Assembly (NCBI GenBank): GCA_021371935.1
Contig: JAJFVF010000004.1
Coordinates: forward strand, 124,001 to 188,000
Length of the DNA stretch: 64,000 nt
Direction of reading: 5' to 3'
From: a bacterium
GTDB taxonomy: Bacteria > Armatimonadota > UBA5829
Shown: positions 6,437 to 49,701 of the stretch, one piece after another
Layout of the letters: the number at the start of each line of letters is the position of its first letter
Position numbering within the stretch: position 1 is the stretch's first letter
Notes under the pieces: model-generated
The model's database searches: none
Told to the model about the DNA's origin: nothing
Seen by the model: the letters and a program-made list of their open reading frames with translations, nothing else
Translations under genes and position numbers: made by a program

Positions 6437-9400
6437 CTACTTTGTGTTCTGATCTTTAGCAAGCCCTATGCGGTCATGGTATGCCGCCATAAAACCTGAC
6501 TTGAGCTTATCTTCAAGGCTTGTTTTGGTATCATCTACATCCAGCGGCCGCACACCCGCATCGGAACGAAGTGCGCCGCTCTCTTTCGAGCTAGCTTTCG
6601 ACTTGCCCTGATCATCGCCGCCTTTTGTCTCACTGCCTTTTTCGGGGCATTCTGGCTTGGCCTGAATCGCCTTGTCGAAGGCAGCCTCAGTCGCAGCGAA
6701 AGCATCATCGGAAAGTTCCGCAAGTCGCCCCAGCTCCTTTTCGCGCTCCTCATTGGATGCAAACATAATGCCCGACTTTTCAAGTTTGGCAATGAGATTC
6801 TGTGCGCGAGTTTTGTTCGCAGCGGCCTTACTTGCCGCTTCAAGTTCCTGAACCTGCTGTTGAAGGTCCAACACCTGCTGCTTGAGCTGCTTGTTCTCGT
6901 CCTCAAGCTCCTTGATGCGGGCCTTGTCGTCTACTGGCGCAGCACCACCCGGAGCGCCTTTCTTTGCAGCATCCTCGTGCTGCTCGTCAATCGTTTTCTT
7001 GTCGTCTTCCAATGGACTGCCTCCTGAACTTGTATGGGTTGCCTCCTGCGAGGCGACTTGTGTTATCCGGGCGTTTTCGTCAGCGCCTTTTCGGTCGAGT
7101 AGACCGAGGCCAGTGAACGTAACGCCATGCAAAATTTCAAAGACCGGCTTGCCCTGATACTCCGCGCCTTTGTACTTGCGAAGATGGATACAATAGTCGT
7201 TCTTGTTTGTCATCATCTTGCCGCAGACGGAGCATTCACCGGCCTCATAGTCACACTCCATCGAGACCTGACTGATGATGCCTTTCTTCATAAGCTTGTA
7301 GGCAAGCGCTGCAGTCGGCGTGTCAGCCACATAGAGTTCGCCAACACATTCGATTCTGCCGCCTGTTTCATCTTCAACGAACTCGGATGCGATGATCCCG
7401 CCGACGATGTCGGTGAGGTCCTGAGAATGTTTGAGGTCGATCTTCTTGTTGATTGCCGTTGTGCAGCGTGTCGAAAGCTCTTCGGGCGTGAAGTGATCGC
7501 CGTTTTTGTTCGTTCCAACCCGGCACATAATGAAGCCGAACTGCGGGTCGCCGGCGTTGGGATTGATGTCTATGGCATCCGCCGAAAGCTGTTCAGAGCC
7601 TGCAATACACACTTCGACTGGTATGGATGTGTGGCAGTTTGCCGGCAGTAGCGCAGCCGCAGTATTGGGAGCGCCGCTGGACTTTGAGGAGATAAACAGC
7701 AGTTCGCGGCCGGTTTTGCCTTCGGTATCTTTGCCGAGGACAATGCCATATTCGACATCCATTCCACGGACACTAACATTGCCGAGCCGCTCGGAGAAGA
7801 TATCGCGGATCTCCTTTTCCGTGGGGAATGCCTTGTCGCGGTAAGACATGATGACCGTTCCATACTTCCCGCGGGCTTCGGTCGCAAGGCTCTCGATGAG
7901 CGAGCGGATGCTGTCACGGTCGTAGTGCGTCCGCGACTGATAGCTTCTGCGATTGTCGTTGAGGAGGGTTTTGTCCGCCCAGCGGTTCATGAGACCCTCG
8001 ACAAAGTGCAGTGAATACTCGTAGTCGTTGTTCGAGAACTGGGTGATGTAAGGTGGGTCTAGGTACAGCACATCCGCGCCGAATTTGCGCACAGCCTCGA
8101 CAGCATCGCCGTGAAATGCCTTGCACTCTTGACCGTTATCGAAGACGAGCTTATTGAGTTGGTTCGCGTAACGTTTGAAGCTTTCGACCATGCTTGCTAC
8201 TGGGATGTTGACGAGCTGGTTTTCTTTGATGCCTGCATCAGCCTCCATCTCGGAGTCATAGTCCAATTCTGATTTGAGATTGAGCTTCGAGCGGTGGAAC
8301 TGCCCGAACATGGATTTGGCTTTCACGGTATTTCCGAGCACAGCAAGCGCGAGGTCTTTTTTGTAGCCGGGCAGTTTCTGGATATTCGCCCATACCTGAT
8401 CCAGCCACGCGAGCACTTTCTTGGTGTAGTAGTAGCCGTGGAAGTTGTCGACTATGAATGTCCCTGCGGATGCATTGGACGAAAGAATTCTCTCGATATC
8501 TTCATCGGTCAATGTCTCGTGTGAGTTCTCGACCACAGCCCGGGCGATATGGTATGGATAGAGCAGCAGGTCGTTCGCGATGACCTGCATGCCCTTGCGC
8601 TTGAAGTGGTATGCAACATTCGCGCCGCCGGAGAATGCATCGAGGAGGGTCTTTGCCTCCTTCGGCACCTGCCGCTCTATCCAGCCGAGCATCATGAACT
8701 TGTTGCCCATGAAGCCCGTGACTCGAACCGGATCTTCACCAGCCTGGCATGAAAGCAGGTCCACCTCATCAGCAAGTGTTGCATCTGCCAGAGCCTGCAT
8801 GTTTTCTTCGATCCGGACCTCGGCCTCTGACACCGGTTGTTCGTGGTCCTTTATCCACTCCTTGGCCTTGTCCATAGTCCAGCCATCAGGATTCTGTTCA
8901 GATTTTTTGGCAAATCGATATGCCTGCAGGACCGTTGACTTCGGATCATGAGCTTCGGGAATGAACTCATCTTTCAGTCTGCCGATAACAATGGAGACAC
9001 CATCAACGCCGTCGAGAGCCTTACGCCTGAAGCTCTCCGGTTCGAACTGCTTAGGATCGCGAACACGATATCGGATCTCGTTTTCAGTCTCGTCCCATAT
9101 CGCCTGTGCCTGCATCTGAGAACATGCCGGGCAAAACCCTGCCGATTGCTTCAACTTACCCGACCGGGAACACACGAACAGCCGCTCAATAGCCTCCGAG
9201 TTCTCGGAATGTCGGGAAGAGATATTGTAGTGGTGCTGCTGTGAACTGATCCGGCTTTCCATTCCATTTGCTGAGATGATGTCTTTCATCTCGGCTTCAT
9301 TCGGATACGCATGGTCGCGATATGATATGAGCCAGTTCGGAATATGCTTCGCATTCGCAAGAAACGTCGAGAAGAATTCGCCGGCGTTAGCTTTTGTTAC

Positions 9401-10285
9401 CGTCTTATGGTCCGTCTCGTAGTGCTTTGTTTTGGAGTCGTCGACTATTGTAAGGCCGTCCCAGTAGGTCATAAGTCCTTCGGTAAAGTGATATGCCTTC
9501 TCATAATTAGTCGTAGAAAATTCTGTGGCGTAGGGAGGATCGAAATAGGCAAGGTCTACTTTGGCATCCTTCACGGCATCATTGATATCCTTGCAGGATG
9601 CCTTGCACTCTTTGCCATTATCGAAGATGAGTGCGTTGATACGCGCAACATTATTTGAAAAGCGTTCCTTGAACTCATCGGGCGTGTCCTGGCGTTTGCC
9701 ATAATCCGTAGATGAGGAAAAGTGCCCGAAACCGCCCTTGCCACCGACACAAGCCTTTCCCAGAGCAAATAATGCGATGTCCTTCTTATAGCCTGAAAGC
9801 GCATCGATATTCGCTCGAATGTTGTCGACGATGGCGTGGACACCATCAGCGAAAAACAACCCCTTGAAGTTGTCACGAACGAACGTGCCAGCCTTGGAAT
9901 TGTTCGCAAGAAGCGCATCAAGCTCTTCCTGATCGATCCTAACGGAGTTGTTTTCAATGATAGCCCGAGCGGCGTGGTAGCTGTAGTGAAGCCGGTCATT
10001 TGCAACAACGCGCAGCCCCTTGGTCTTATACATATACGCCACGACCGCCGAACCGGAAAATGCGTCGAGGACTGAGCCAATGTCTTCCGGTGTATGCTTC
10101 CATATCCAGTCGACAAGCTTCTGCTTTGAACCTATGTAATTAGTTACGTACTTCGGCCGCTCGTCCGACGGCAATTCCTCCGTGACAAGCTCCGCTGCCT
10201 GTGCGAGAAGAATCTCAAGGTGGCGCGAAGCATCCGTCTCAAGTAGAAATGCCAGCCGATCAAGGTCCGTGGCGAAAAGCTGCAT
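6437..10285 (-). CDS. Virion polyprotein: two adenine DNA methylase domains, protease and scaffold
   Basis: A 1282-residue protein of unusual make-up. Residues 45-370 are a D12-class (Dam-like) adenine methyltransferase domain with the motif YIGSKQKLVDW, the motif I segment LDAFSGSAVVAYMY and the catalytic YFDPPYATEF near residue 250. Residues 373-390 carry a CxxxG...CPAC cluster. Residues 395-500 contain a YRVRDPKQF...GWTMDKAKEW domain of the kind found in XkdF-like phage proteins. A second methylase domain follows at about 520-880 (LDAFSGGANVAYHF; YLDPPYITQF near 745). Residues 900-1110 look like a capsid maturation protease region with a conserved DLKHSQDLTD segment and a four-Cys knuckle (ECSVCGKM). 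A coiled coil and charged tail complete it, as in scaffolds. It starts 40 bases below promoter copy A, with GGAG before the ATG. Both DPPY sites appear intact. Confidence 0.8.
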   Translation of the reverse strand: MQLFATDLDRLAFLLETDASRHLEILLAQAAELVTEELPSDERPKYVTNYIGSKQKLVDWIWKHTPEDIGSVLDAFSGSAVVAYMYKTKGLRVVANDRLHYSYHAARAIIENNSVRIDQEELDALLANNSKAGTFVRDNFKGLFFADGVHAIVDNIRANIDALSGYKKDIALFALGKACVGGKGGFGHFSSSTDYGKRQDTPDEFKERFSNNVARINALIFDNGKECKASCKDINDAVKDAKVDLAYFDPPYATEFSTTNYEKAYHFTEGLMTYWDGLTIVDDSKTKHYETDHKTVTKANAGEFFSTFLANAKHIPNWLISYRDHAYPNEAEMKDIISANGMESRISSQQHHYNISSRHSENSEAIERLFVCSRSGKLKQSAGFCPACSQMQAQAIWDETENEIRYRVRDPKQFEPESFRRKALDGVDGVSIVIGRLKDEFIPEAHDPKSTVLQAYRFAKKSEQNPDGWTMDKAKEWIKDHEQPVSEAEVRIEENMQALADATLADEVDLLSCQAGEDPVRVTGFMGNKFMMLGWIERQVPKEAKTLLDAFSGGANVAYHFKRKGMQVIANDLLLYPYHIARAVVENSHETLTDEDIERILSSNASAGTFIVDNFHGYYYTKKVLAWLDQVWANIQKLPGYKKDLALAVLGNTVKAKSMFGQFHRSKLNLKSELDYDSEMEADAGIKENQLVNIPVASMVESFKRYANQLNKLVFDNGQECKAFHGDAVEAVRKFGADVLYLDPPYITQFSNNDYEYSLHFVEGLMNRWADKTLLNDNRRSYQSRTHYDRDSIRSLIESLATEARGKYGTVIMSYRDKAFPTEKEIRDIFSERLGNVSVRGMDVEYGIVLGKDTEGKTGRELLFISSKSSGAPNTAAALLPANCHTSIPVEVCIAGSEQLSADAIDINPNAGDPQFGFIMCRVGTNKNGDHFTPEELSTRCTTAINKKIDLKHSQDLTDIVGGIIASEFVEDETGGRIECVGELYVADTPTAALAYKLMKKGIISQVSMECDYEAGECSVCGKMMTNKNDYCIHLRKYKGAEYQGKPVFEILHGVTFTGLGLLDRKGADENARITQVASQEATHTSSGGSPLEDDKKTIDEQHEDAAKKGAPGGAAPVDDKARIKELEDENKQLKQQVLDLQQQVQELEAASKAAANKTRAQNLIAKLEKSGIMFASNEEREKELGRLAELSDDAFAATEAAFDKAIQAKPECPEKGSETKGGDDQGKSKASSKESGALRSDAGVRPLDVDDTKTSLEDKLKSGFMAAYHDRIGLAKDQNTK

Positions 10286-32256: not shown

Positions 32257-32303
32257 CCACACTTAGTTATTTACTACCGCAATCCACGAAGTGTCGGGAT
32301 TGT
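32257..32303 (-). promoter_or_regulatory. Prophage promoter motif, copy C
   Basis: Minus-strand CGACACT (32296-32290) and TAGTAAATAAC (32276-32266), 13 bases apart. It starts two bases downstream of the sigma-like gene's stop codon and points into the recombination and replication operon, whose first gene begins about 90 bases further on. The first bases after the second box are TAAGTGTGGGG, slightly different from the other copies. Confidence 0.7.
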
Positions 32304-32304
32304 T

Positions 32305-32892
32305 TCAGAGATAGTCCTTCAGGCCAGCCTCATCAAAGATGCCTCTGAGCTTGTGGATCGCGTCGTAGACCTGCTGGCGGGACGCGCCTGTTGCGGCAGA
32401 TATCTGTGTCACTGTCTGCGTCTTCAGGCGCTCGCAAATATCCTGGAGCGCTGACGGCAGGGACTCGACGACTCTTGCGATATCCAGCCGCATTTCGAGC
32501 ATCTCCAGTACCGGACGAGAAAGCAGACCTGCCGCCAGCAGGTAGTCCTCTCGATCTATCGCCTCCATCCGCTGCATGACACCGCCGCCATCATCTTCGG
32601 GAATCTCCTCATTAAGAGAAAACTCGAAAGTGGCGATACTCTCGACGCGCTTGTTCCTGCGGATCATCGTCCGAGCCTTGTTCTCCACGACGCAGGCAAT
32701 GAACGTCTTCACAGTGCCTCGCTCGGAATTATGTTCCTGCAAATGCTCGAACAGGTGCAGCGCGATCTCCTGTTCCAGATCATCGCGGTCGGATGTATCG
32801 AACCCACATTTCTTGATGAGCTGCCTGACTTTGAGCTTGATGGTAGTAATTGCATAGTCGTCGTAATCTACATAGTTTGGTGTATCACCCAT
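32305..32892 (-). CDS. Phage sigma-70-like RNA polymerase sigma factor
   Basis: A 195-residue protein with two sigma domains. Region 2 lies at about residues 35-85, with SDRDDLEQEIALHLFEHLQ and FIACVVENKARTMIRRNKR. Region 4 lies at the C-terminus: LPSALQDICERLKTQTVTQI, then an ATGASRQQVYDAIHKLRGIF recognition helix-turn-helix. The size and two-domain layout fit ECF-like or Xpf-like phage sigma factors that redirect host RNA polymerase. A four-copy promoter-like motif in this prophage, one copy directly downstream of this gene, is its obvious candidate target. The ribosome site GAGGAGA is placed in the 3' arm of a 6-bp hairpin, so translation may be controlled. Which DNA it recognises is inference. 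Confidence 0.84.
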   Translation of the reverse strand: MGDTPNYVDYDDYAITTIKLKVRQLIKKCGFDTSDRDDLEQEIALHLFEHLQEHNSERGTVKTFIACVVENKARTMIRRNKRVESIATFEFSLNEEIPEDDGGGVMQRMEAIDREDYLLAAGLLSRPVLEMLEMRLDIARVVESLPSALQDICERLKTQTVTQISAATGASRQQVYDAIHKLRGIFDEAGLKDYL

Positions 32893-32900
32893 TTTTGTTC

Positions 32901-33012
32901 TCCTCGATCCCGCGAGGAAGCCGCTGTGGGTGACGCATGAAGTCCACCGCTTACAACAAAGGCGGAGGCATTGCGATGTCGCGTCAAAGCGACACCCACA
33001 ACGACCTCCGCC
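32901..33012 (-). promoter_or_regulatory. Structured leader of the sigma-like gene with hidden ribosome site
   Basis: Near the gene, TCCTCG (minus strand 32918-32913) pairs with CGAGGA (32906-32901), and the second arm contains the Shine-Dalgarno bases of the sigma gene. Further upstream, arms 32925-32936 and 32989-33000 are complementary (11 of 12 bases), and arms 32961-32968 and 33005-33012 are fully complementary. Their order A-B-A'-B' is that of a pseudoknot. The alternating pairings could form a regulatory RNA. No known riboswitch is recognised. Confidence 0.45.
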
Positions 33013-33081
33013 TGGCGGTCAGTCATCTTGTCTGGTGTTTTGTAATACCGATATTTGAGTTGTGATCTCCCTCTGACCGTG

Positions 33082-33906
33082 TCAGTCGGGAGTGAGTGTG
33101 GTTCCGGCTGATTCAAAGCCCAACCGGAATCCTCCTATGCCAGCAAAGAGTTCAATAAATGTAAATTCTCTGCCTGTTGTCTCCATAATCCGCTCCGCAA
33201 GCCATCTGGCAACCAGTGTGTTCACTGCATTACCGAGCAGGATTCTGCGGCGCGAGCGAGATAGTCCAGAAGTCCAGCCTCTGGGGAATCCCTGCAGGGA
33301 TTCGCATTCTGACGGATCGAGCATTCGTAAGCCCCGTCCCGGTTCGTAACAGTAAGTGTCTTCCGCAGCCACCCGGTTGGGGTGCGCAGTAAGACACGCT
33401 GCAATGGGCGTTTCCTCTTCCACGCGCGACGCAGCAAACCCGTAACCATCTGCGGCGTTAGATACAAATCGCTCGAATCGGGCGTATAGCTCATGAGGGC
33501 ATCCGATACAGAACTGCCGCCTGCGACTCTGACCTGTGAAATCACGAGCGTCGAGTGCGACAACAGCGATTCCGTATCCGAGCAACTCCAACCCGGCAGC
33601 GAAGTTGACAATGTCTGGTGCACAAACATTCTCGCGGACCACCCACGGTGGGCGAAGTCTCCCGACCACGGCAAGGAAGTATCCGGACAGGTCGGGATGC
33701 TTACTTGGCCGATCCCCCCTGGCCAGGGAACGTGCAGGGCAGGGATCTCCTCCGCAAACAACGTCGATTGTCCCGAAGTCCTCTTGCTCAAGCTCGCCAA
33801 GCACATCTCGGATGTCTCCCTGGTGCAAGGTTCCGTCGCTCCAGTGCCTGCGGTATATTCCGCATGCAAATTTGTCGATCTCGTTTGCCCATACGCATCG
33901 GTTCAT
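33082..33906 (-). CDS. Circularly permuted cytosine-5 DNA methyltransferase
   Basis: A 274-residue C5 methyltransferase whose motifs are in a permuted order. The protein opens at motif II (MNRCVWANEIDKFACGIYR), then shows motif IV with the catalytic Cys in GGDPCPARSLARGDR, motif VI in PWVVRENVCAPD, motif VIII in GQSRRRQFCIG, a short target-recognition region, motif IX near ESLQGFPRGW, and motif X in LLGNAVNTLVARWL. Motif I, the AdoMet loop, comes last (TFIELFAGIGGFRLGFESAG, residues about 247-266). In ordinary enzymes motif I is first. The N-terminus and C-terminus of the usual protein are therefore exchanged by about 30 residues. All key residues are present, so activity is plausible. It would protect phage DNA from restriction. 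The recognition sequence is unknown. Confidence 0.85.
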   Translation of the reverse strand: MNRCVWANEIDKFACGIYRRHWSDGTLHQGDIRDVLGELEQEDFGTIDVVCGGDPCPARSLARGDRPSKHPDLSGYFLAVVGRLRPPWVVRENVCAPDIVNFAAGLELLGYGIAVVALDARDFTGQSRRRQFCIGCPHELYARFERFVSNAADGYGFAASRVEEETPIAACLTAHPNRVAAEDTYCYEPGRGLRMLDPSECESLQGFPRGWTSGLSRSRRRILLGNAVNTLVARWLAERIMETTGREFTFIELFAGIGGFRLGFESAGTTLTPD

Positions 33907-33909
33907 ACA

Positions 33910-34236
33910 TCAAAGCCGCACTACATCAACGATGTGTATTCGAAACGGCAACCCGTCGTGAATTTCCACCAATTGCACGACGCCGTCGCCAAGCCTGCGA
34001 AACTGCCGAAGCATCTCCACTACCTGCGGCTTGTCCAGATTGTCGCAGTCGGCAAGTATTGGCTTTCTGCTGCTCTCACCGCTGAGCTTCACATCTCGCA
34101 GCACTTTCACGGGAAGCCCCATGACTGGCTCGCCATCCGAGATGACGAGGTCTTCTACTTTGCCGTAGTGTATTTCCTGCATCAATTGAAGCAGCCGTTT
34201 TTGAGCTTCTGTGATTTGCAACTGGTTTTGAGACAA
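33910..34236 (-). CDS. Small DUF2292-like protein
   Basis: About 108 residues if it starts at the TTG at 34236, which is preceded by AGGTG and GGGAGG. The protein has QKRLLQLMQEIHYGKVEDLV followed by ISDGEPVMGLPVK, the helix-then-hairpin pattern of small DUF2292 proteins found in phages and plasmids. A second half (KPILADCDNLDKPQVVEMLR) is unfamiliar. It stands three bases before the permuted methyltransferase gene and downstream of the 11-bp repeat array. A regulatory or DNA-binding role is possible but not shown. Confidence 0.5.
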   Translation of the reverse strand: MSQNQLQITEAQKRLLQLMQEIHYGKVEDLVISDGEPVMGLPVKVLRDVKLSGESSRKPILADCDNLDKPQVVEMLRQFRRLGDGVVQLVEIHDGLPFRIHIVDVVRL

Positions 34237-36829: not shown

Positions 36830-36880
36830 CTACATCCCCGACACTTTATGGATCACAGTAGTAAATAACTAAGTAGGGGG
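36830..36880 (+). promoter_or_regulatory. Prophage promoter motif, copy D
   Basis: The only plus-strand copy. CGACACT (36839-36845) and TAGTAAATAAC (36859-36869) are separated by 13 bases and followed by TAAGTAGGGGGG. It lies about 45 bases upstream of the first gene of the plus-strand lysis and integration cassette. The rest of the 36660-36922 gap is AT-rich and probably also contains the divergent early promoter, which I cannot place. Confidence 0.72.
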
Positions 36881-37601: not shown

Positions 37602-38057
37602 ATGAGTGTAATCAAACAAATAACAGATCTGCAGAATCTTTCCCACAGTGAACTTGTATCTCTCTGGCGCACACTCTGTGGCAATGAACCTCCAGCAGCC
37701 AACCGGAGGTTCATTATTAAGCGGCTTGCTTACAGGATACAGGAGATAGCATATGGCGGTCTCTCGGAGGAATCACATCACAAAATGGATGCGGTTCTTA
37801 AGTGCCATGGCTATGATGAGTTGGGTATGCCCAAGGCATCATCCAGCCGAGCTCAGAGTAGGAAAGACCTGCCGGTAATAGGAAGCAAGTTGGTTCGTGA
37901 ATGGAATGGCAGACATTATGAAGTTACAACGCTCCGCGACGGTTTCGAATATGAGGGCCGACGATATCGCTCGCTGTCGGCTGTCGCAAAGGCGATAACC
38001 GGCACACACTGGAATGGGCGTGCGTTCTTTGGCCTTGCGGGGAGAAATTCTAGATGA
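37602..38057 (+). CDS. DUF2924 protein of the recombinase module
   Basis: About 151 residues from ATG 37602 (MSVIKQITDLQNLSHSELVS), with GAGGT seven bases upstream. An upstream in-frame start would run back into the endolysin gene and is not used. The N-terminal helical domain is followed by GSKLVREWNGRHYEVTTLRD and FEYEGRRYRSLSAVAKAITG, then THWNGRAFFGL, which is the typical end of DUF2924 proteins. These are regularly encoded directly before serine recombinases in prophages and are presumed DNA-binding partners. It overlaps the recombinase gene by ATGA. Confidence 0.85.
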   Translation: MSVIKQITDLQNLSHSELVSLWRTLCGNEPPAANRRFIIKRLAYRIQEIAYGGLSEESHHKMDAVLKCHGYDELGMPKASSSRAQSRKDLPVIGSKLVREWNGRHYEVTTLRDGFEYEGRRYRSLSAVAKAITGTHWNGRAFFGLAGRNSR

Positions 38058-39631
38058 TAAATGAAAGTGGCATCTGTAATGAGCGTAAGCAAGGCATGCG
38101 TTGCGCAATCTACACACGCAAGAGTACCGAAAAGGGTCTCGAACAGGAATTTAATTCGCTTGATGCTCAGCGGGAGGCTTGTGAAGCATACATCGCAAGC
38201 CAGCGTCATGAAGGCTGGATTGCCCTAACAGAGCATTATGATGATCCAGGTTTTTCTGGAGGTAACATTGAACGGCCGGGGCTAAAGAAGCTTATGCGAG
38301 ATATCGAGCGCGGCAAAATCGATTGTGTCGTTTTTTACAAACTCGACAGATTATCACGGTCGCTACTGGACTTCGTAAAACTTGCAGAGTTTTTCGATCA
38401 GCACAAAGTGACTTTTGTATCTATCACACAGCAGTTTTCAAGCACAACAGCTATGGGGCGTCTCATCCTCAACATTCTCCTGAGCTTTGCCGAATTCGAG
38501 AGAGCTATAAGTGCCGAGCGTGTTCGTGACAAGATAGCCGCCGCCAAGCGGAAAGGTAAGTATCTCGGCGGAACTCCTGCATATGGTTATGATGTAGACT
38601 ACAAGAAAACGAAGCTGATTGTGAACCAGGAGGAGGCAAAGCTGGTTCGTGAGGTTTTCAAGAGATTCATAGAGACCGGCTCCTGTCTGGAGATAGCCAG
38701 AGAGCTGAATTCCAAGGGAATCCCGACCAAGTCTTGGACAACGAAAAATGGATCATTTCATCAGGGCGGGCCTTGGAACACTCAACACCTATACCGTGTT
38801 TTGAACAACCGAACTTATCTTGGTGAGACTGTCCATAAGGACAAGTCATATCCCGGCGAACATGAGGCGATTGTTCCAAAGTCACTATGGGAGAAAGTCC
38901 AGCAGATATTTTCAAGTGGCACCGCGCGGAAGAAAGGCCAGGAAACCCATGAGGTTAAGTCACTTCTACGAGGCATCATTCGCTGCGGACATTGTGACAA
39001 GTCCATGGTCGGCACATACACCAGAAAGAAGAACAAGATCGTCTATCGTTACTACACATGCAGCAGCGTAATAAAGAATGGCTATTCATCGTGCTCAGTC
39101 AGATCTGTTCCCGCCGGTGAGATTGAAAAGGCTGTCATTGGTCAGGTTCGGGCGTTGTTACAGTCGCCGGAAGTTATAGCCGAAACATTCCGGGCTGCAA
39201 GGGATCTCCAAGAGCAGGAAATTCGTTCTCTTCAGGATGAAAAAACAAATCTGGAAATGCGAATGGTAGAACTTAAAGCGGCAGCAAGCGAACTGGTATC
39301 AGGCAATTTCGAGAAAGGCACTACCACCGACAGGTTTTCGGAGCTTAATGACGACATCCAGAAGACACGCCGTATACTTATTGAAACCGACGAACGCCTG
39401 TCGGAACTTACTGCAGGATCGCTCACCGAACAAGATGTTGCGGATGCCCTCCGTAAGCTCGATCCAGTGTGGGACGAACTGTTTCCATCCGAGCAACACA
39501 GAATTCTGCGGTCACTGGTGGAGCGAGTGACAGTCTATCCCAATGGTTTAGATATTCAGCTTAGGGCAGAAGGTATTCACTCAATAGTAGCCGAGGTAAA
39601 AGGATGTGAAGAAAGGATAGGCGTAGTATGA
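38054..39631 (+). CDS. Large serine recombinase (prophage integrase)
   Basis: A 525-residue enzyme. The resolvase domain contains AIYTRKSTEKG with the catalytic Ser, then DDPGFSGGNIERPGL, FYKLDRLSRSLLDF and ILLSFAEFERAISAERVRDK. The recombinase domain follows (GGTPAYGYDVDYK, then TYLGETVHKDKSYPGEHEAI), and a zinc ribbon with CGHCDKSM and a later CxxxxxxxC part. The C-terminus has a coiled coil and a short beta domain. Such integrases insert and excise phage DNA at attP/attB without host factors. The gene is coupled to DUF2924 before it and to the ParB-like gene after it, a frequent trio. Confidence 0.92.
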   Translation: MINESGICNERKQGMRCAIYTRKSTEKGLEQEFNSLDAQREACEAYIASQRHEGWIALTEHYDDPGFSGGNIERPGLKKLMRDIERGKIDCVVFYKLDRLSRSLLDFVKLAEFFDQHKVTFVSITQQFSSTTAMGRLILNILLSFAEFERAISAERVRDKIAAAKRKGKYLGGTPAYGYDVDYKKTKLIVNQEEAKLVREVFKRFIETGSCLEIARELNSKGIPTKSWTTKNGSFHQGGPWNTQHLYRVLNNRTYLGETVHKDKSYPGEHEAIVPKSLWEKVQQIFSSGTARKKGQETHEVKSLLRGIIRCGHCDKSMVGTYTRKKNKIVYRYYTCSSVIKNGYSSCSVRSVPAGEIEKAVIGQVRALLQSPEVIAETFRAARDLQEQEIRSLQDEKTNLEMRMVELKAAASELVSGNFEKGTTTDRFSELNDDIQKTRRILIETDERLSELTAGSLTEQDVADALRKLDPVWDELFPSEQHRILRSLVERVTVYPNGLDIQLRAEGIHSIVAEVKGCEERIGVV

Positions 39632-42489: not shown

Positions 42490-43071
42490 ATGAGAAAAAC
42501 TGTTTCTGAACTAGCAGATGTCCAGATAGGCTACCAATCTCGTGGGAGTATACATCCTGACCCCAGGGGCACTCACAAAGTAATCCAACTTAAGGATATT
42601 GGCAATGATTATAAGCTAGATACGAGTGACTTATATAAAATCATACCTGAACGTGAGCCGGATAGGTATCTTGTAACATGCGGAGACGTTCTATTTTTAT
42701 CGCGCGGGCGTTATCATGTTTCTGTGGTTATTGATGAGCAATTGTCTGATACCATCGCGGTAGGCACATTTTATATTTTGAGAGTCAAATCCAGTCATGT
42801 GCTGCCGGAATATATGGCATGGTATATCAATCAGCCTCAAACACAAGCGGAACTTAAGACAAAAGCGCAGGCAACCAATATTCCGTTAATAACAATAGCT
42901 GCGTTTAGGGATCTTGAGATTGATATTCCGCCACTATCCATTCAGCACAGTATAGTGGAGTTGACCAGGCTTGTGTCAAAAGAACAAAGCCTGCTTGCCA
43001 AACTTGCTAAAAAGCGAGAGCTATTGACTTCCGTCATCTGTATGATGGCGGCGAAAAGGACTAGAGAGTAA
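42490..43071 (+). CDS. Half-size HsdS-like specificity protein
   Basis: A 193-residue protein with one target-recognition domain instead of two. The N-terminus (VSELADVQIGYQSRGSIHP) and centre (RYLVTCGDVLFLSRGRYH) match type I specificity subunits. The end (PPLSIQHSIVELTRLVSKEQ, then LAKLAKKRELLTSVI) is the conserved helix that contacts HsdM. Half-size S proteins can act as dimers and recognise a symmetric site. Here a full-length hsdS also exists two genes downstream. The stop overlaps the hsdM start by one base. No clear ribosome site is seen before its ATG. Confidence 0.75.
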   Translation: MRKTVSELADVQIGYQSRGSIHPDPRGTHKVIQLKDIGNDYKLDTSDLYKIIPEREPDRYLVTCGDVLFLSRGRYHVSVVIDEQLSDTIAVGTFYILRVKSSHVLPEYMAWYINQPQTQAELKTKAQATNIPLITIAAFRDLEIDIPPLSIQHSIVELTRLVSKEQSLLAKLAKKRELLTSVICMMAAKRTRE

Positions 43072-44588
43072 TGCAAGACATAATTACTAAAATCGATCAA
43101 GAAGAAATAAACGGTATTGTGTGGCGCGCTTGCGATACGTTTCGAGGCGCGGTTGACCCTGAGAGCTATAAGAACTACATCTTAACAATGCTGTTTCTAA
43201 AATATATAAGTGATCTCAACAAAGACAAACGCGAGGAGCTTGAGCGAAAATATGATGGTAACAAAGAGCGCATCCGACGCGCGTTGAAACGTGAGCGTTT
43301 TGTGATGCCGCCGGAGTGCGATTTCGATTTCCTTTGCGGTAAGCGAGATGAGCCGAACATAGGCGAGCTTATTAACATCGCCTTGGATAGTATTGAAGAC
43401 GAAAACAAAGGCAAATTGGAGAATGTGTTTCGTGCTATCGATTTCAACAGCGAACCGATACTTGGCGAGACGTTGGATCGAAATAGGCGTCTGAAAAATC
43501 TGCTTGAGGATTTTGCGGATAACAGACTTGATTTTAGACCCTCTCACCTTGGCGGAAACGATGTAATCGGCGATGTATATGAGTATTTAATTGATAGGTT
43601 TGCATCCGGCGCTGGGAAAAAAGGCGGAGAATTTTATACACCGAAGTGTGTATCTGTCTTGCTCTCCAGGTTGCTTGATCCACAACCTGGAGACAGAATA
43701 TGCGATCCGGCATGTGGTTCAGGATCATTGCTCATTCGGGTAGCTCAACGTATTGGAAAAGATGATTTCTCATTATATGGTCAGGAGAGCAATGGAAACA
43801 CATGGGCGCTTTGCAAGATGAACATGTTTTTGCATGGAATGGACAGCGCACGCATCGAATGGGGAGACACACTTAATAACCCTAAGCTCATTGAAGATGA
43901 TCGGCTGATGAAATTCAATATTGTTGTTGCAAATCCACCATTCTCGCTTGATAAATGGGGAGCTGAAAATGCCGGAGCCGACCGCTTTCGCAGATTTTAC
44001 CGTGGCATTCCACCTAAAAGTCGAGGAGACTTTGCATTTATAAGTCACATGGTTGAGACTGCGCTGGAGGCCGATGGTAAAGTCGGTGTTATAGTTCCGC
44101 ATGGAGTTCTGTTCCGTGCAGGTTCTGAAGGCGTTATACGAAAAAAACTGATTGAAGATAACTTTCTGCATGCTGTTATCGGTTTGCCTACTAATCTGTT
44201 TTTCGGAACAGGTATACCAACAGCCATTTTGATCTTTGATAAGAGCCGCCCTAATAAGAGCATTTCAGATGTACTTTTCATAGATGCCAGCCGAGATTAC
44301 GGAGAAAGTAAGAGCCATAATATTCTTCGTGAACAGGATATTGAAAAGATCACATCCGCGTTCGGAGCTTATGAGACAATAGATAAATACACCTACCGCG
44401 CAACACTTGAGGAAATCGCCGAGTCGGATTACAATCTCAACATCCCGCGCTATATAGATACCTTCCAAGAAGAAGAGGAAGTCGATATAGCCGCAGTTCA
44501 GCGGGAGATCAATATGATCGAAGCGGAGCTTGCTTCTACTAGGGCTGAGATGAACAATTGGCTGAAGGAGTTGGGATATGGCTCTTAA
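43071..44588 (+). CDS. hsdM: Type I restriction-modification system DNA methyltransferase subunit
   Basis: A 505-residue adenine methyltransferase. The N-terminal helical domain is followed by the GGEFYTPKCVSVLLSRL region, motif I ICDPACGSGSLLIRVAQ and motif IV IVVANPPFSLDKW (NPPF), then DFAFISHMVETALEADGKV and VGVIVPHGVLF. These are the standard HsdM landmarks, and the length is usual. It modifies DNA as M2S and also forms the core of the R2M2S endonuclease. It overlaps both neighbours (one base with the short S gene, 11 bases with hsdS). Confidence 0.93.
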   Translation: MQDIITKIDQEEINGIVWRACDTFRGAVDPESYKNYILTMLFLKYISDLNKDKREELERKYDGNKERIRRALKRERFVMPPECDFDFLCGKRDEPNIGELINIALDSIEDENKGKLENVFRAIDFNSEPILGETLDRNRRLKNLLEDFADNRLDFRPSHLGGNDVIGDVYEYLIDRFASGAGKKGGEFYTPKCVSVLLSRLLDPQPGDRICDPACGSGSLLIRVAQRIGKDDFSLYGQESNGNTWALCKMNMFLHGMDSARIEWGDTLNNPKLIEDDRLMKFNIVVANPPFSLDKWGAENAGADRFRRFYRGIPPKSRGDFAFISHMVETALEADGKVGVIVPHGVLFRAGSEGVIRKKLIEDNFLHAVIGLPTNLFFGTGIPTAILIFDKSRPNKSISDVLFIDASRDYGESKSHNILREQDIEKITSAFGAYETIDKYTYRATLEEIAESDYNLNIPRYIDTFQEEEEVDIAAVQREINMIEAELASTRAEMNNWLKELGYGS

Positions 44589-45804
44589 CGGTTTATACCC
44601 AGCTAGCGTCAAGCCGGGAATACCAAAACTTGGTATTCAGCCGGATGGATGGCGAAAGGTAGTAATTCGAGACATAGTACAGGTTGTTGAAAGACCATGC
44701 AATGTATCACAAAACTTGTCATACCAGCTAATCATTGCACGGCGAAATCGAGGCGGCATAGAACCTAGATGTGTGCTCAATGGCAAACAGATAAAGACCA
44801 AGACGCAGTTTTATGTTAAGGCTGGAGATTTCCTGATCTCCCGCCGTCAGATAGTCCATGGTGCATGTGGTGTGGTTCCTCCTTATCTTGATGGTGCAAT
44901 TGTCTCTAACGAGTATGCAGTTCTGGTTCCCCGAGACGGCCTTACCATTGAATATCTCGGGTTTCTTTGCCATACTAACTATTTTCAACAAACATGTTTT
45001 CACGCCAGCGTGGGTGTAGCAGTGGAGAAGATGGTTTTTCGCATTGATCAGTGGCTTAGATATAAATTCTACCTACCACCTGTAAAAGAGCAGCATATCA
45101 TCTCGAAGATACTGTCAGCCGCTGAACTATCCATCGATCAAATAACGAGACTGATCGAAGCAAAAAATATCCTCAAGAAAGGCCTAATGCAGCAGCTTCT
45201 TACAGGAAAGAAGAGGTTCCGTGAGTTTGACGGGCAGGATTGGACTGAATATAAGCTTGGCAAAATATTCAAAGAACGCGTAGAAATAGGTCGGGAAGAC
45301 CTTCCGCTTCTCTCTGTAACTGCAGACAATGGTGTAGTCGATAGGGATGATCTCATCAAGCGGGATACATCAAGCTCAGATAAGAGTAAATACAAACGTG
45401 TCGCACCTGGCGATATCGCCTATAACACGATGCGTATGTGGCAAGGACGCTCCGCCCTATCTGACAAAGATGGCATTGTTAGCCCTGCCTACACAGTATG
45501 TGTTCCACAGGAAGAAGTTGACGGTCAATTTGCGGAGCATCTTTTTCGAATTCCTGAGATTATATACAAGTTCCGTCGTTATTCGCAAGGGCTTGTTGAT
45601 GACACACTGAATCTCAAATATCCTGCGTTCGCCGAAATCAAGCTTGCTTTTCCATGTAAACAAGAGCAATGTCGTATCGCTAACGTGCTCAATTCTATTT
45701 CAAAGGAAATCAACCTGCTCGAACGACAACAAGAAGCTTTGAAACAACAGAAAAAAGGCCTTATGCAAAAATTACTTACTGGACAAGTGAGGGTGAAAAT
45801 ATAA
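44578..45804 (+). CDS. hsdS: Type I restriction-modification specificity subunit
   Basis: A 408-residue protein with two target-recognition domains. The first is at about residues 20-170, the first conserved helical region at about 175-213 (LSAAELSIDQITRLIEAK, then GLMQQLLTGKKRF), the second recognition domain at 220-370, and the second conserved region at the end (QQKKGLMQKLLTG). The repeat of the LMQ.LLTG motif at both conserved regions shows the usual internal duplication. It determines the bipartite DNA site of the complex. The start overlaps hsdM by 11 bases. Confidence 0.92.
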   Translation: MALNGLYPASVKPGIPKLGIQPDGWRKVVIRDIVQVVERPCNVSQNLSYQLIIARRNRGGIEPRCVLNGKQIKTKTQFYVKAGDFLISRRQIVHGACGVVPPYLDGAIVSNEYAVLVPRDGLTIEYLGFLCHTNYFQQTCFHASVGVAVEKMVFRIDQWLRYKFYLPPVKEQHIISKILSAAELSIDQITRLIEAKNILKKGLMQQLLTGKKRFREFDGQDWTEYKLGKIFKERVEIGREDLPLLSVTADNGVVDRDDLIKRDTSSSDKSKYKRVAPGDIAYNTMRMWQGRSALSDKDGIVSPAYTVCVPQEEVDGQFAEHLFRIPEIIYKFRRYSQGLVDDTLNLKYPAFAEIKLAFPCKQEQCRIANVLNSISKEINLLERQQEALKQQKKGLMQKLLTGQVRVKI

Positions 45805-45805
45805 G

Positions 45806-46399
45806 ATGAGCTGGATGCACGAACTGATGAATGACACAATATCCATAGTAAAGCCCAATGGCCGTAGAATAGACAGCATTACAGCATTCGTAGATTCAAA
45901 CATGGTATTTATGGAGGAAAGCGATCTGGCTGGTTTCCCTTTTGAGGAGCGCGACAGAATAATCCGCAGATTGCCGAACGGTTGTGAAGAAGTCTATTTG
46001 GTAATGGATAGAGGCTACAATTCAAGCTTCGCTGGTGAAGCTGCACACTACCAGGCAAAGGTGAGAAAAGAGAGCGCAGTAAGCTTCGGCAGACCATCTG
46101 CTGTCACTTACAACCTGAATGGCGCTGCCTCCAGGGTCAATGTGAATTCCATTGATTCTTCGGTCAATGTAGTGAATGCGGCGAATGATGATAGCTTTCA
46201 GCAATTGAGAGCGCTAATCGAACAGAACATTTCTGAACCGAGAAAAAGAGCGGAACTGTTGGATCATGTAAACCAGCTTAAGAATACAAGTGGCGGCGCA
46301 GATTACAAAAGCCGATACACAGCGTTTATTGCGGCAGCAGCAGATCATATGACGTTGATCGCACCATTTATTCCGTTTCTGACAGGTCTGCTAAAGTAG
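45806..46399 (+). CDS. Restriction-locus associated protein with C-terminal hydrophobic segment
   Basis: A 197-residue protein placed between hsdS and hsdR, starting one base after the hsdS stop. The N-terminal half is polar with an acidic RDRIIRRLPNGCEEVYLVMD region. The C-terminal part (DSFQQLRALIEQNISEPRKR, then YKSRYTAFIAAAADHMTLIA and a final PFIPFLTGLL) looks like a helical hairpin ending in a hydrophobic segment. Similar proteins are present in various bacterial loci, but I know no function. Membrane association and a role in defence are inference from position and the hydrophobic end. Confidence 0.55.
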   Translation: MSWMHELMNDTISIVKPNGRRIDSITAFVDSNMVFMEESDLAGFPFEERDRIIRRLPNGCEEVYLVMDRGYNSSFAGEAAHYQAKVRKESAVSFGRPSAVTYNLNGAASRVNVNSIDSSVNVVNAANDDSFQQLRALIEQNISEPRKRAELLDHVNQLKNTSGGADYKSRYTAFIAAAADHMTLIAPFIPFLTGLLK

Positions 46400-46443
46400 C
46401 AATGGAATAGGCTAATTGATATTGGCTCATAACTAAACAGATG

Positions 46444-46468
46444 AACCCGCGACACAATGTCGCGGGTT
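46444..46468 (+). terminator. Strong hairpin before hsdR
   Basis: AACCCGCGACA and TGTCGCGGGTT form an 11-bp perfect stem around a CAA loop. It is not followed by a T-run. It separates the modification part of the locus from the restriction gene and could dampen or delay hsdR expression, which would be useful when the locus enters a new host. The GGAGGT ribosome site of hsdR starts 17 bases later. Confidence 0.5.
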
Positions 46469-46494
46469 GTGTCCTTCACTCTTGGAGGTAAAAT

Positions 46495-49400
46495 ATGCCG
46501 GACGTACCGTTAATGAAAGAAGATCATATATCGCAGATACCCGCACTACAATTTTTGCAGAACCTCGGGTACACATATCTCACGCCTGAGGAAGCAAATT
46601 CGTCTCGCGGTGGACGGACCGGCGATGTCATACTCGAAGGTATTCTAGCAAAACAACTTCGGTGCATGAACACCATCAACTATCGCGATAATCAGTACCC
46701 GTTCAGTGAAGGCAACATCATGAGCGCAATTCAGTCGCTCAAGGACATCATGAACGATGGGCTTATACGGACAAATGAACGAGTATACAATCTGCTCTGT
46801 CTCGGGAAAAGCCTGTCGCAGTCTATAAATGGCGACACAAAGAGTTTCACCCTCCAATACATTGATTGGGAGCATCCGGAACGCAATGTATATCATGTTG
46901 CCGAAGAATTCAATGTAGGACGCACTGGCACACGGCAACCATATACTCCCGACATCGTGCTTTTCGTAAATGGTATACCATTGGTGGTAATCGAATGCAA
47001 GTCACCTCATTCCGGTAGTGAAAATAACAAGCCTATTGATCAGGCAATTTCTCAGCAAATACGAAACCAGAAAGATGATGGCATTCCACAACTTTTCTTT
47101 TATTCTCAACTGCTGCTGGCACTATCCAAGAATGAGGCAAAATACGGAACAACTGGAACTCCCGCCAAGTTCTGGGCTGTTTGGAAAGAAGCAGATATTG
47201 ATAATGAAGTGAGTCGGCTGATCAACAAGCCTCTTTCTTCCGACAAGAAGACAAAACTCTTTAGTAAACGATTCCGCTATGTTCGGGACTACTTCGATGC
47301 AATTGAAGTTGATGGCGGCCGAGAGATTACCGAACAAGACCGCGCATTATACTCTCTCTGTAGACCCGATAGACTACTGGAGTTGGCATTTCAATTTATT
47401 GTTTACGATGCCGGAGAGAAAAAGATAGCACGATATCAGCAATATTTTACTGTAAAGAAAATCGCAGAGCGGATCAGGCAGATTGACAGCACAGGAAAAC
47501 GAAAAGGTGGTGTGGTCTGGCACACTCAAGGTAGCGGTAAATCACTCACAATGGTAATGCTCGCTAAGTCAATTGCCCTCGAATCAAGCATCAATGATTA
47601 CAAAATTATACTGGTTACTGACAGGGTGGATTTGGATGATCAAATATTCACTACCTTTAAGCATTGCGGCAGAGAAGTAGTGCAGGCAAAAACAGGAAAG
47701 AATCTGATGGCACTTCTGAGCGGTCAGAAGCAGCGTATTATCACTACAGTTATCGATAAATTCGATGCGGCAGTTGGATCCAAGGGGCTGCGCATCGACA
47801 ATCCTGATATATTCGTGTTAGTAGATGAAAGTCATAGAGGCCAATATGGTCCCAGGCATGCCCGGATGCAGAAAACTCTACCAAATGCCTGCTATATTGG
47901 CTTCACAGGTACGCCAATTATGCACCAGCATAAGAATACTGTCAGCAAGTTCGGCGGTATTATACCTCCAGCATATACAATGCGTGATGCAGTCAGAGAC
48001 AAGGCAGTAGTACCGTTGCTCTATGAGGGACGCCAAGTTAAACAGATGGTGTTCAAGGAACCGATTGATAGCTGGTTCGAGCGGATAACAGCTTCTTTAA
48101 CTAAGGAACAAGTCGCAGACCTCAAACGCAAGTATTCTACTGCTGACGAGTTGAATAAGGCTCTGCAGAACGTGATGAGAATCGCTTTGGACGTGAGCGA
48201 GCACTTCCGTGACAATTGGCAAAACTCAGGATTCAAGGCGCAATTGGTAACTCCTAACAAGCCGACGGCACTTCTATATAAGAAGTTCCTTGACGAGTTT
48301 GGAGTGGTAACAAGCGAGATCCTCATATCTGGTCCAGATGAACGAGAAGGCGAAGAAGATATCCGAGAGGAGAACACCAGCGAGGTGATTCACTTCTGGA
48401 AAACGATGATGGATAGATATGGAAGTGAGAAAGACTATAACCGTGAGGTTATTAACGCATTCAAATTCGATGATCAACCCGAAATAATCATTGTAGTCAG
48501 CAAGCTCCTAACTGGTTTCGACGCTCCCAGAAACACAGTTTTGTATCTTGCAAAGAAGATGGAAGGGCATTCTCTTCTTCAGGCGATTGCAAGAGTCAAC
48601 CGATTGTATGATGGTAAAGACTTCGGTTATATCCTTGACTACTGGGGCGTTCTCTCGGAACTTGATCAAGCACTTACATTTTATGACAAGCTTTCTGAGT
48701 ATGATGGGGAAGATTTGGATACGCTTGCGGTAACCAGCATTAGTGCAGAAGTTGAGAAGTTGCCACAGCGCCATTCTGATCTATGGGATCTGTTCAAAGA
48801 TATAAGAAACACAAGAGATGAGGAACAATATGAGCTATTGCTTGCTCAGGAAGACCTGCGCGAGAAGTTCTATCAGCGCTTCTCCGAATTCGGAAGAACG
48901 CTATCTATTGCCCTTTCAACTGTAAAGTTCATCACCGAGACATCAGATGACAAGATTGATCTTTATAAACGTGACCGTGATTTCTTCGCAAGACTCAGAG
49001 TGAATGTCCAACGGCGCTACGCAGAAGTTGTCAACTTCCGAGATTATCAGCCTCAGATCAAAAAGCTCATAGATACCTATGTTGGAACAGGCGATATTGA
49101 GAAACTAAACGAACCGGTCAATATCTTCGATACCGATGCATTTGAGGAAGAGGTTGTGCGACAGACGGGTGACGCCTCAAAAGCGGACATAATAGCCCAC
49201 AATACCATGCGATCTATTAGTGAGCACATGCAAGAAGATCCAGTCTTCTATAAGAAGTTTTCCCAGCTTCTGGAAGAAGCGATCCGCGCATTCCATCAAG
49301 AGCGCATCATCAAAGCGGATGAATACCTAAAGCGGGTCAGAAGTATTATGAACTCGGTGGTTACCAGAACTGGGGATGATGTTCCAGAGGCATTACGCGA

Positions 49401-49701
49401 ACGAGATGTTGCCAAAGCATTTTATGGCTGCATTAAAGAAAATCGTGAGAAGCACGGCATTGATAATGACGAGCGTGATATATGGTCTGAGGCCGCTATT
49501 GGCATTGAAGATATTATTCGTGTACATAAGAAAGTTGATTGGGAAACTGATGTTGATAAGCAAAATCAAATGCGTAATGACATAGAAGACTATTTGTTTG
49601 ATATGAAAGACAAGTGTGGGCTAGAACTTACATTTGATGACATCGATGTAATTATGGAGCAATGCCTAGATATAGCAAAGCTGAGGATTCACCAAAGGTA
49701 A
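46495..49701 (+). CDS. hsdR: Type I restriction endonuclease subunit
   Basis: A 1068-residue motor and nuclease subunit. The N-terminal PD-(D/E)XK nuclease has TPDIVLFVNGIPLVVIECKS near residues 150-169. The SF2 translocase follows with Walker A WHTQGSGKSLTMVML near 340, DEAD-like FVLVDESHRGQYG near 440, YIGFTGTPIM near 465 and IIVVSKLLTGFDAPRN and QAIARVNRLYDGKDFG near 660-710. The C-terminal helical part binds HsdM. All motifs are intact, so the locus appears complete. An 11-bp hairpin lies before it. Confidence 0.93.
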   Translation: MPDVPLMKEDHISQIPALQFLQNLGYTYLTPEEANSSRGGRTGDVILEGILAKQLRCMNTINYRDNQYPFSEGNIMSAIQSLKDIMNDGLIRTNERVYNLLCLGKSLSQSINGDTKSFTLQYIDWEHPERNVYHVAEEFNVGRTGTRQPYTPDIVLFVNGIPLVVIECKSPHSGSENNKPIDQAISQQIRNQKDDGIPQLFFYSQLLLALSKNEAKYGTTGTPAKFWAVWKEADIDNEVSRLINKPLSSDKKTKLFSKRFRYVRDYFDAIEVDGGREITEQDRALYSLCRPDRLLELAFQFIVYDAGEKKIARYQQYFTVKKIAERIRQIDSTGKRKGGVVWHTQGSGKSLTMVMLAKSIALESSINDYKIILVTDRVDLDDQIFTTFKHCGREVVQAKTGKNLMALLSGQKQRIITTVIDKFDAAVGSKGLRIDNPDIFVLVDESHRGQYGPRHARMQKTLPNACYIGFTGTPIMHQHKNTVSKFGGIIPPAYTMRDAVRDKAVVPLLYEGRQVKQMVFKEPIDSWFERITASLTKEQVADLKRKYSTADELNKALQNVMRIALDVSEHFRDNWQNSGFKAQLVTPNKPTALLYKKFLDEFGVVTSEILISGPDEREGEEDIREENTSEVIHFWKTMMDRYGSEKDYNREVINAFKFDDQPEIIIVVSKLLTGFDAPRNTVLYLAKKMEGHSLLQAIARVNRLYDGKDFGYILDYWGVLSELDQALTFYDKLSEYDGEDLDTLAVTSISAEVEKLPQRHSDLWDLFKDIRNTRDEEQYELLLAQEDLREKFYQRFSEFGRTLSIALSTVKFITETSDDKIDLYKRDRDFFARLRVNVQRRYAEVVNFRDYQPQIKKLIDTYVGTGDIEKLNEPVNIFDTDAFEEEVVRQTGDASKADIIAHNTMRSISEHMQEDPVFYKKFSQLLEEAIRAFHQERIIKADEYLKRVRSIMNSVVTRTGDDVPEALRERDVAKAFYGCIKENREKHGIDNDERDIWSEAAIGIEDIIRVHKKVDWETDVDKQNQMRNDIEDYLFDMKDKCGLELTFDDIDVIMEQCLDIAKLRIHQR

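Follow-up and report, generated by a model that had tools for sequence, protein, structure and literature searches.

A circular permutation between motifs I and II in the C5-cytosine DNA methyltransferase of a prophage

The gene described here lies in the window, as we call the whole 64,000-nucleotide stretch of bacterial DNA that was analysed, and very probably encodes a working C5-cytosine DNA methyltransferase of a prophage, a natural circular permutant of the canonical fold. With its motif I at the end of the protein, a rearrangement that had earlier been built in the laboratory is now seen in an integrated virus of a bacterial genome. The minus-strand genes of the window resemble those of a myovirus-type prophage, including tail sheath, head, portal and terminase genes; a recombinase gene lies at 38054-39631, and the host genome measures 3.54 Mb. 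The coordinates of the features are given in Table 1.

Table 1. Features of the permuted methyltransferase gene, its surroundings and the type B genes of gut phages.
Feature	Position	Strand	Evidence or remark
Circularly permuted C5-cytosine DNA methyltransferase, 274 aa	33082..33906	-	PF00145; same ORF in L001, 88% identity
Motif IV GGDPCP, presumed catalytic C56	33736..33753	-	Invariant in 9/9 aligned relatives
Motif VI RENV, residues 91-94	33625..33636	-	Invariant in 9/9 aligned relatives
Body, residues 1-243: motifs II, III, IV, VI, VIII, short target-recognition region, IX, X	33178..33906	-	HhaI 34-121 and 231-318; canonical profile
Link, residues 244-247, between C-terminal helix (motif X side) and motif I	33166..33177	-	Compared with canonical L057 C-terminus
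Moved motif I segment, residues 248-267, at C-terminus	33106..33165	-	HhaI 12-33; motif I profile E 3.1e-5; dS/dN of codons 243-267
In-frame TGA that ends the upstream gene, two codons ahead of the ATG; rules out a longer N-terminus	33910..33912	-	One codon more in L001
Small gene upstream (DUF2292 match weak and below cut-off), with a homologue ahead of the gene in L001	33910..34365	-	
Downstream hairpin, a probable terminator, shared with L001	32961..33012	-	Folding z -4.99 here, -3.84 in L001
Sigma-70 region 2-like gene, downstream, conserved in L001	32305..32892	-	
Type B C5 methyltransferases	L038 1193-2845; L040 1484-2845; L037 1473-2884; loci among L078-L157		

The open reading frame matches PF00145 in three stretches (Pfam search, E 5.4e-32, 111.9 bits, cut-off 22). 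In the translation, the motifs follow each other in the order II, III, IV, VI, VIII, IX, X and I, in agreement with the order given by a first-pass annotation, which had omitted motif III. Under the motif names that we take to apply to these positions, motif II reads NEID (with E9), motif III GDI (30-32), motif IV PC (C56), motif VI ENV (92-94), motif VIII QSRRR (126-130), motif X GN (225-226) and motif I FAGIGG (254-259), with motif IX at about residues 191-211. Motifs I, IV, VI, VIII and X, by which a C5 methyltransferase is recognised, are each present once.

Alignment with M.HhaI falls into three pieces, where residues 248-269 correspond to HhaI 12-33, residues 3-94 to HhaI 34-121 and residues 152-240 to HhaI 231-318. 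Since the first two pieces abut exactly at HhaI 33|34 and every motif is retained, the protein represents a complete enzyme with its chain opened between motifs I and II. Indeed, when rotated, it matches the canonical profile with 327.5 bits in a single domain, compared with 300.5 bits for the best domain of the unrotated protein. The old ends are bridged by a few residues: the canonical phage relative L057 ends GERIMETIRT..., and the window reads AERIMETTGREFTFIELFAGIGG. Hence, motif X precedes motif I in one chain with no motif lost, as in a circular permutant. The chain begins at motif II, and motifs IX and X come after VIII, which sets it apart from type H (M.BssHII-like) enzymes; motif II occupies residues 3-11, so that the N-terminus does not fall between motifs II and III as in type B. 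The break at HhaI 33|34, corresponding to M.MpeI residue 37 in the structure alignment, is that of an enzyme opened like cp35M.MpeI. Plant DRM2 is likewise a permuted C5 enzyme and contains the same run from motif X to motif I (query residues 195-262 on DRM2 173-242). In DRM2, motifs II onward come after motif I, whereas in the window protein the chain stops seven residues beyond the motif I segment (residue 267 of 274) and nothing else follows.

An AlphaFold2 model of the protein, for which canonical bodies and motif I fragments were entered as separate rows of the input alignment, has a mean pLDDT of 83.0 and a pTM of 0.84. The structure prediction proposed by the first-pass annotation thus yields a confidently modelled tail (residues 241-270, pLDDT 93-94) that comprises a strand (249-253) and a helix (259-266). 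DSSP assigns a strand only when it is paired and, since this strand is the only one in the tail, the tail would pair with the body in the model. VIA-align places model residues 1-246 on M.HhaI 32-324 (Z 17.0, rmsd 3.1, 224 aligned) and on M.MpeI 37-392 (Z 14.3, rmsd 3.4, 227 aligned); structure aligners follow chain order, so these superpositions cover the body and not the tail. Canonical L057, modelled without an alignment, reached a mean pLDDT of 34.7.

We propose that the N-terminus lies in the loop that separates motif I from motif II in the canonical fold, and that the chain passes through motifs II to X and then, by a link of few residues where the canonical ends meet, runs into the motif I strand and the AdoMet-binding loop. 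Docked into the central sheet as one of its strands, the tail would make the AdoMet pocket complete, and both catalysis by C56 and target recognition would be left unchanged.

The same gene, with identical ends, is found on the IMG/VR phage contig 3300027863_001757 (L001). The DNA of window and L001 is 88.6% identical over 2866 bases on the downstream side and 82.5% identical over 1094 bases that include the gene. The in-frame codons preceding the ATG read TGA TGT in the window and TGA ACC TCT in L001, and the start of the gene one codon past the stop of the preceding gene suggests translational coupling. At the other end, conservation between window and L001 ceases at once beyond the motif I segment; further down there is a strong hairpin. 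We considered that the C-terminal segment could be the start of a second gene, a possibility that the first-pass annotation had named as fatal to its reading, and rejected it: the tail is homologous to the N-terminus of the same enzyme (HhaI 12-33), as its resemblance to an ordinary N-terminus had led that annotation to expect, and no conserved gene continues it, nothing being conserved between tail and hairpin. An overlapping 82-aa ORF at 32868-33116 gave no match in Pfam. At 32261-32298 and 36837-36880 the window carries, in opposite orientations, a repeat of some 40 bases that is also present in L001 (BLAST) and is perhaps a phage regulatory element.

Comparison of window and L001 gave dS 0.33 and dN 0.06 for codons 1-242 and dS 1.07 and dN 0.10 for tail codons 243-267, values that are rough as they rest on one sequence pair. 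In the tail, synonymous changes per site exceed nonsynonymous ones (p 3.6e-5, Fisher test with rounded site counts). These values point to purifying selection on the moved motif I segment and speak against a decaying stump. A motif I profile built from 24 canonical relatives and run over the 1809 six-frame stop-to-stop segments of the window recovered only the tail (E 3.1e-5; next 0.57), and a search of the window's genome with the whole protein gave one match, the gene itself. An upstream or hidden second motif I, which would have restored a normal enzyme, is thereby ruled out, both by the negative profile scan of all six frames and by the in-frame TGA before the ATG.

The ATG of residue 241 is preceded at six bases by GGAG in both phages and could act as an internal start, adding to the full-length chain a 34-residue motif I peptide that works in trans; indeed, the accessible part of PMC5944983 describes fragments of M.MpeI, split between motifs II and III, that complement each other. 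The full-length chain, however, already carries motif I, and a methionine is also found in the C-terminal helix of canonical L057, so that its conservation needs no role as a start codon. We regard such a split enzyme as very improbable. Even less probability attaches to the gene being a remnant of two tandem methyltransferase genes that decayed and fused into a non-functional protein. Duplication followed by loss is the likely origin of the gene in any case, the reading frame alone would look alike, and some type B genes elsewhere (see below) are split over frames, but purifying selection on both body and tail, the presence of each motif exactly once and the identical ends kept in both phages argue against decay.

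Apart from L001, scans of viral and genome contigs yielded 26 distinct relatives once duplicates were removed. Motif I stands ahead of motif IV in 25 of these, with a degenerate form in L051, L059 and L066; the 26th, L046, has lost its 5' end at the contig end, and its C-terminus is without motif I. L077, with a broken ORF, is among the 25 but was left out of alignment and tree. With the other 25 relatives, the rotated proteins of window and L001 align over their full length, so that the comparison with non-permuted relatives called for at the outset resulted in an end-to-end match. The degenerate forms indicate that loss of cofactor binding may happen in the family, and the permuted protein, whose methylation activity is a prediction, might have been kept as a DNA-binding or regulatory protein that is no methyltransferase; yet here motif I is intact and conserved, likewise PC, ENV, QxRxR and GN, which renders this reading very doubtful. 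An assembly artefact in the draft genome of 22 contigs has practically no probability and is already refuted, given that both the gene and its surroundings recur, at 82-89% DNA identity, on the independent metagenome contig L001.

In a tree of the body columns, the permuted pair groups together at 100/100 and is nested among 25 canonical rows, and hence the permutation is derived; the sister of the pair is not firmly resolved (L057, 63/93). The canonical phage GGDPCPxRS group (L057, L045) belongs to the same family as the window enzyme, with bodies 57-58% identical to the window protein and, by alignment, the same target-recognition region, but has the normal order with motif I first. Altogether, the break between motifs I and II claimed by the first-pass annotation is borne out by the alignments, by L001, by the tree and by the structure model. 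Two permuted members with this break are known, the window enzyme and L001: scans of genome and viral contigs for further ones returned only L001, and an X-to-I query against 291 genomes of the same phylum, that of the window included, gave no stop-free match spanning both motifs except the window's own.

The permutation would have arisen from a normal phage enzyme in a common ancestor of the L001 phage and the prophage of the window. The most likely route is an in-frame tandem duplication or fusion, after which the first motif I and all that came behind the second were lost. Origin by tandem duplication and loss of the outer parts, as first suggested from the sequence, is plausible; no duplication relic, that is, a remnant of the lost outer parts, was recognised here. 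The stretch METTGREFTF had been considered as the fossil start of a second copy and was dropped, as canonical L057 has RIMETI in its C-terminal helix. On plasmid pAciIRM of Arthrobacter citreus, a 703-residue ORF (L041, 1553-3664) consists of two complete C5 methyltransferases head to tail. This fused pair has the required X-to-I junction and shows that the kind of fusion that could give rise to a permutant exists in nature.

In the accessible part of PMC5944983, a 2018 survey of 20,677 REBASE entries, 27 natural permuted C5 enzymes are reported, all opened in the variable region, so that motifs IX and X precede I-VIII, and type B is stated not to seem to occur naturally. Its authors suggest that nature favours breaks leaving both domains intact, perhaps as others weaken AdoMet binding. 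M.BssHII, M.Alw26I, M.Esp3I and other type H enzymes in that account share motif X before motif I with the window enzyme, but begin in the variable region with IX and X, whereas in the window motif I is last; the contrast with the M.BssHII break drawn by the first-pass annotation was therefore right. As far as this survey is accessible, natural breaks lie only in the variable region, and the window thus presents a new natural permutation point. Across the literature searched, consisting mostly of papers free of subscription and including PMC10853773, PMC10073500 and PMC13432834, each accessible in part, no report of a natural C5 enzyme permuted at I|II or II|III was found.

Engineered permutants of ten active types, built from tandem copies, are described in the same part of PMC5944983. 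Among these, cp35M.MpeI, whose chain starts at residue 35, is poorly soluble and conferred full or almost full protection once induced, and cp33M.SssI is active. Both are, like the window enzyme, opened after motif I and before motif II; the sites given in this part of the paper cover every inter-motif segment, so that the two would represent its I|II class. The window break lies about two residues from that of cp35M.MpeI (model residue 1 falls on M.MpeI 37, compared with the cp35 start at 35). The two constructs were made in the laboratory, whereas the window gene is natural and selected; by analogy, the window enzyme corresponds in nature to a design that is known to function.

The X-to-I query also led to a second type of permutation. 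Among 166 phage records that matched it, nine spanned 80% or more of the query, and the four of these nine that were examined all have a II|III break, in one frame in L038 and L040 and split in L037 and L039. The type B version of Faecalibacterium phage FP_Toutatis is likewise split over frames. Two of 2016 plasmid records reached the same coverage, pAciIRM with its fused pair and pBone7_3 with type H order, and hence the query can see known permutants. The gut-phage type B enzymes begin MKHLGDITKI and end with motif I and then II, being opened between II and III. A further scan gave 201 coding places, the best 80 of which were examined and, together with L038 and L040, make up 82 loci, 70 of them distinct in the motif IV region. 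With wider motif patterns, not demanding one frame, these 70 divide into 25 permuted, 25 canonical and 20 unclassified loci; under stricter patterns, 19 distinct proteins from the same set are permuted within one frame and 31 distinct rows are left undecided. In a 50-row tree, from which L092 was dropped as having no motif X match, the 18 type B rows all fall to one side of a branch that is not firm (58/97), and are separate from the family of the window enzyme. In canonical gut-phage relatives the corresponding place has an in-frame methionine (...RFPNMKHLGDI...), and type B enzymes may have adopted it as their start.

Like the window enzyme, the gut-phage type B enzymes (L038, L040, L078 and others) are natural permutations inside the AdoMet-binding half with motif I after X; they differ from it in being opened between II and III, in their separate tree branch and in a longer variable region, and the two permuted families are unrelated. 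Phages have thus probably settled at least twice, independently, on permutations inside the AdoMet-binding half, at I|II in window and L001 and at II|III in a diverse gut-phage group, and the motif II region would be a natural opening point of enzymes that work normally. Laboratory work had found both points tolerable, and the 2018 survey, in its accessible part, saw no natural case of either. Since the window enzyme is opened in the AdoMet-binding half, its motifs are selected and canonical relatives exist, the quality of a permutant becomes testable on natural enzymes. The enzyme is also a test case for tools that assume a chain order, and genes permuted in the same way may become annotated as truncated.

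Inside canonical as well as permuted gut-phage genes we observed a second open frame that overlaps the enzyme frame, usually at +1, and contains a conserved ACxGILxRAxxRGK-like stretch (L040 at about 1971, L078 at about 3482, and others). The pattern is present in 41 of the 70 distinct loci from the best 80 of 201 places plus L038 and L040, and in L080, L103 and L144 the enzyme frame shifts near it. In the window itself, a 1282-aa protein encoded among the virion genes (6437-10285, minus strand) has strong matches to the DNA-methyltransferase PHROGs phrog_27806 and phrog_56, and type I restriction-modification genes for specificity, methyltransferase and restriction subunits lie at 42490-49701 on the plus strand, a few kb beyond the recombinase gene.
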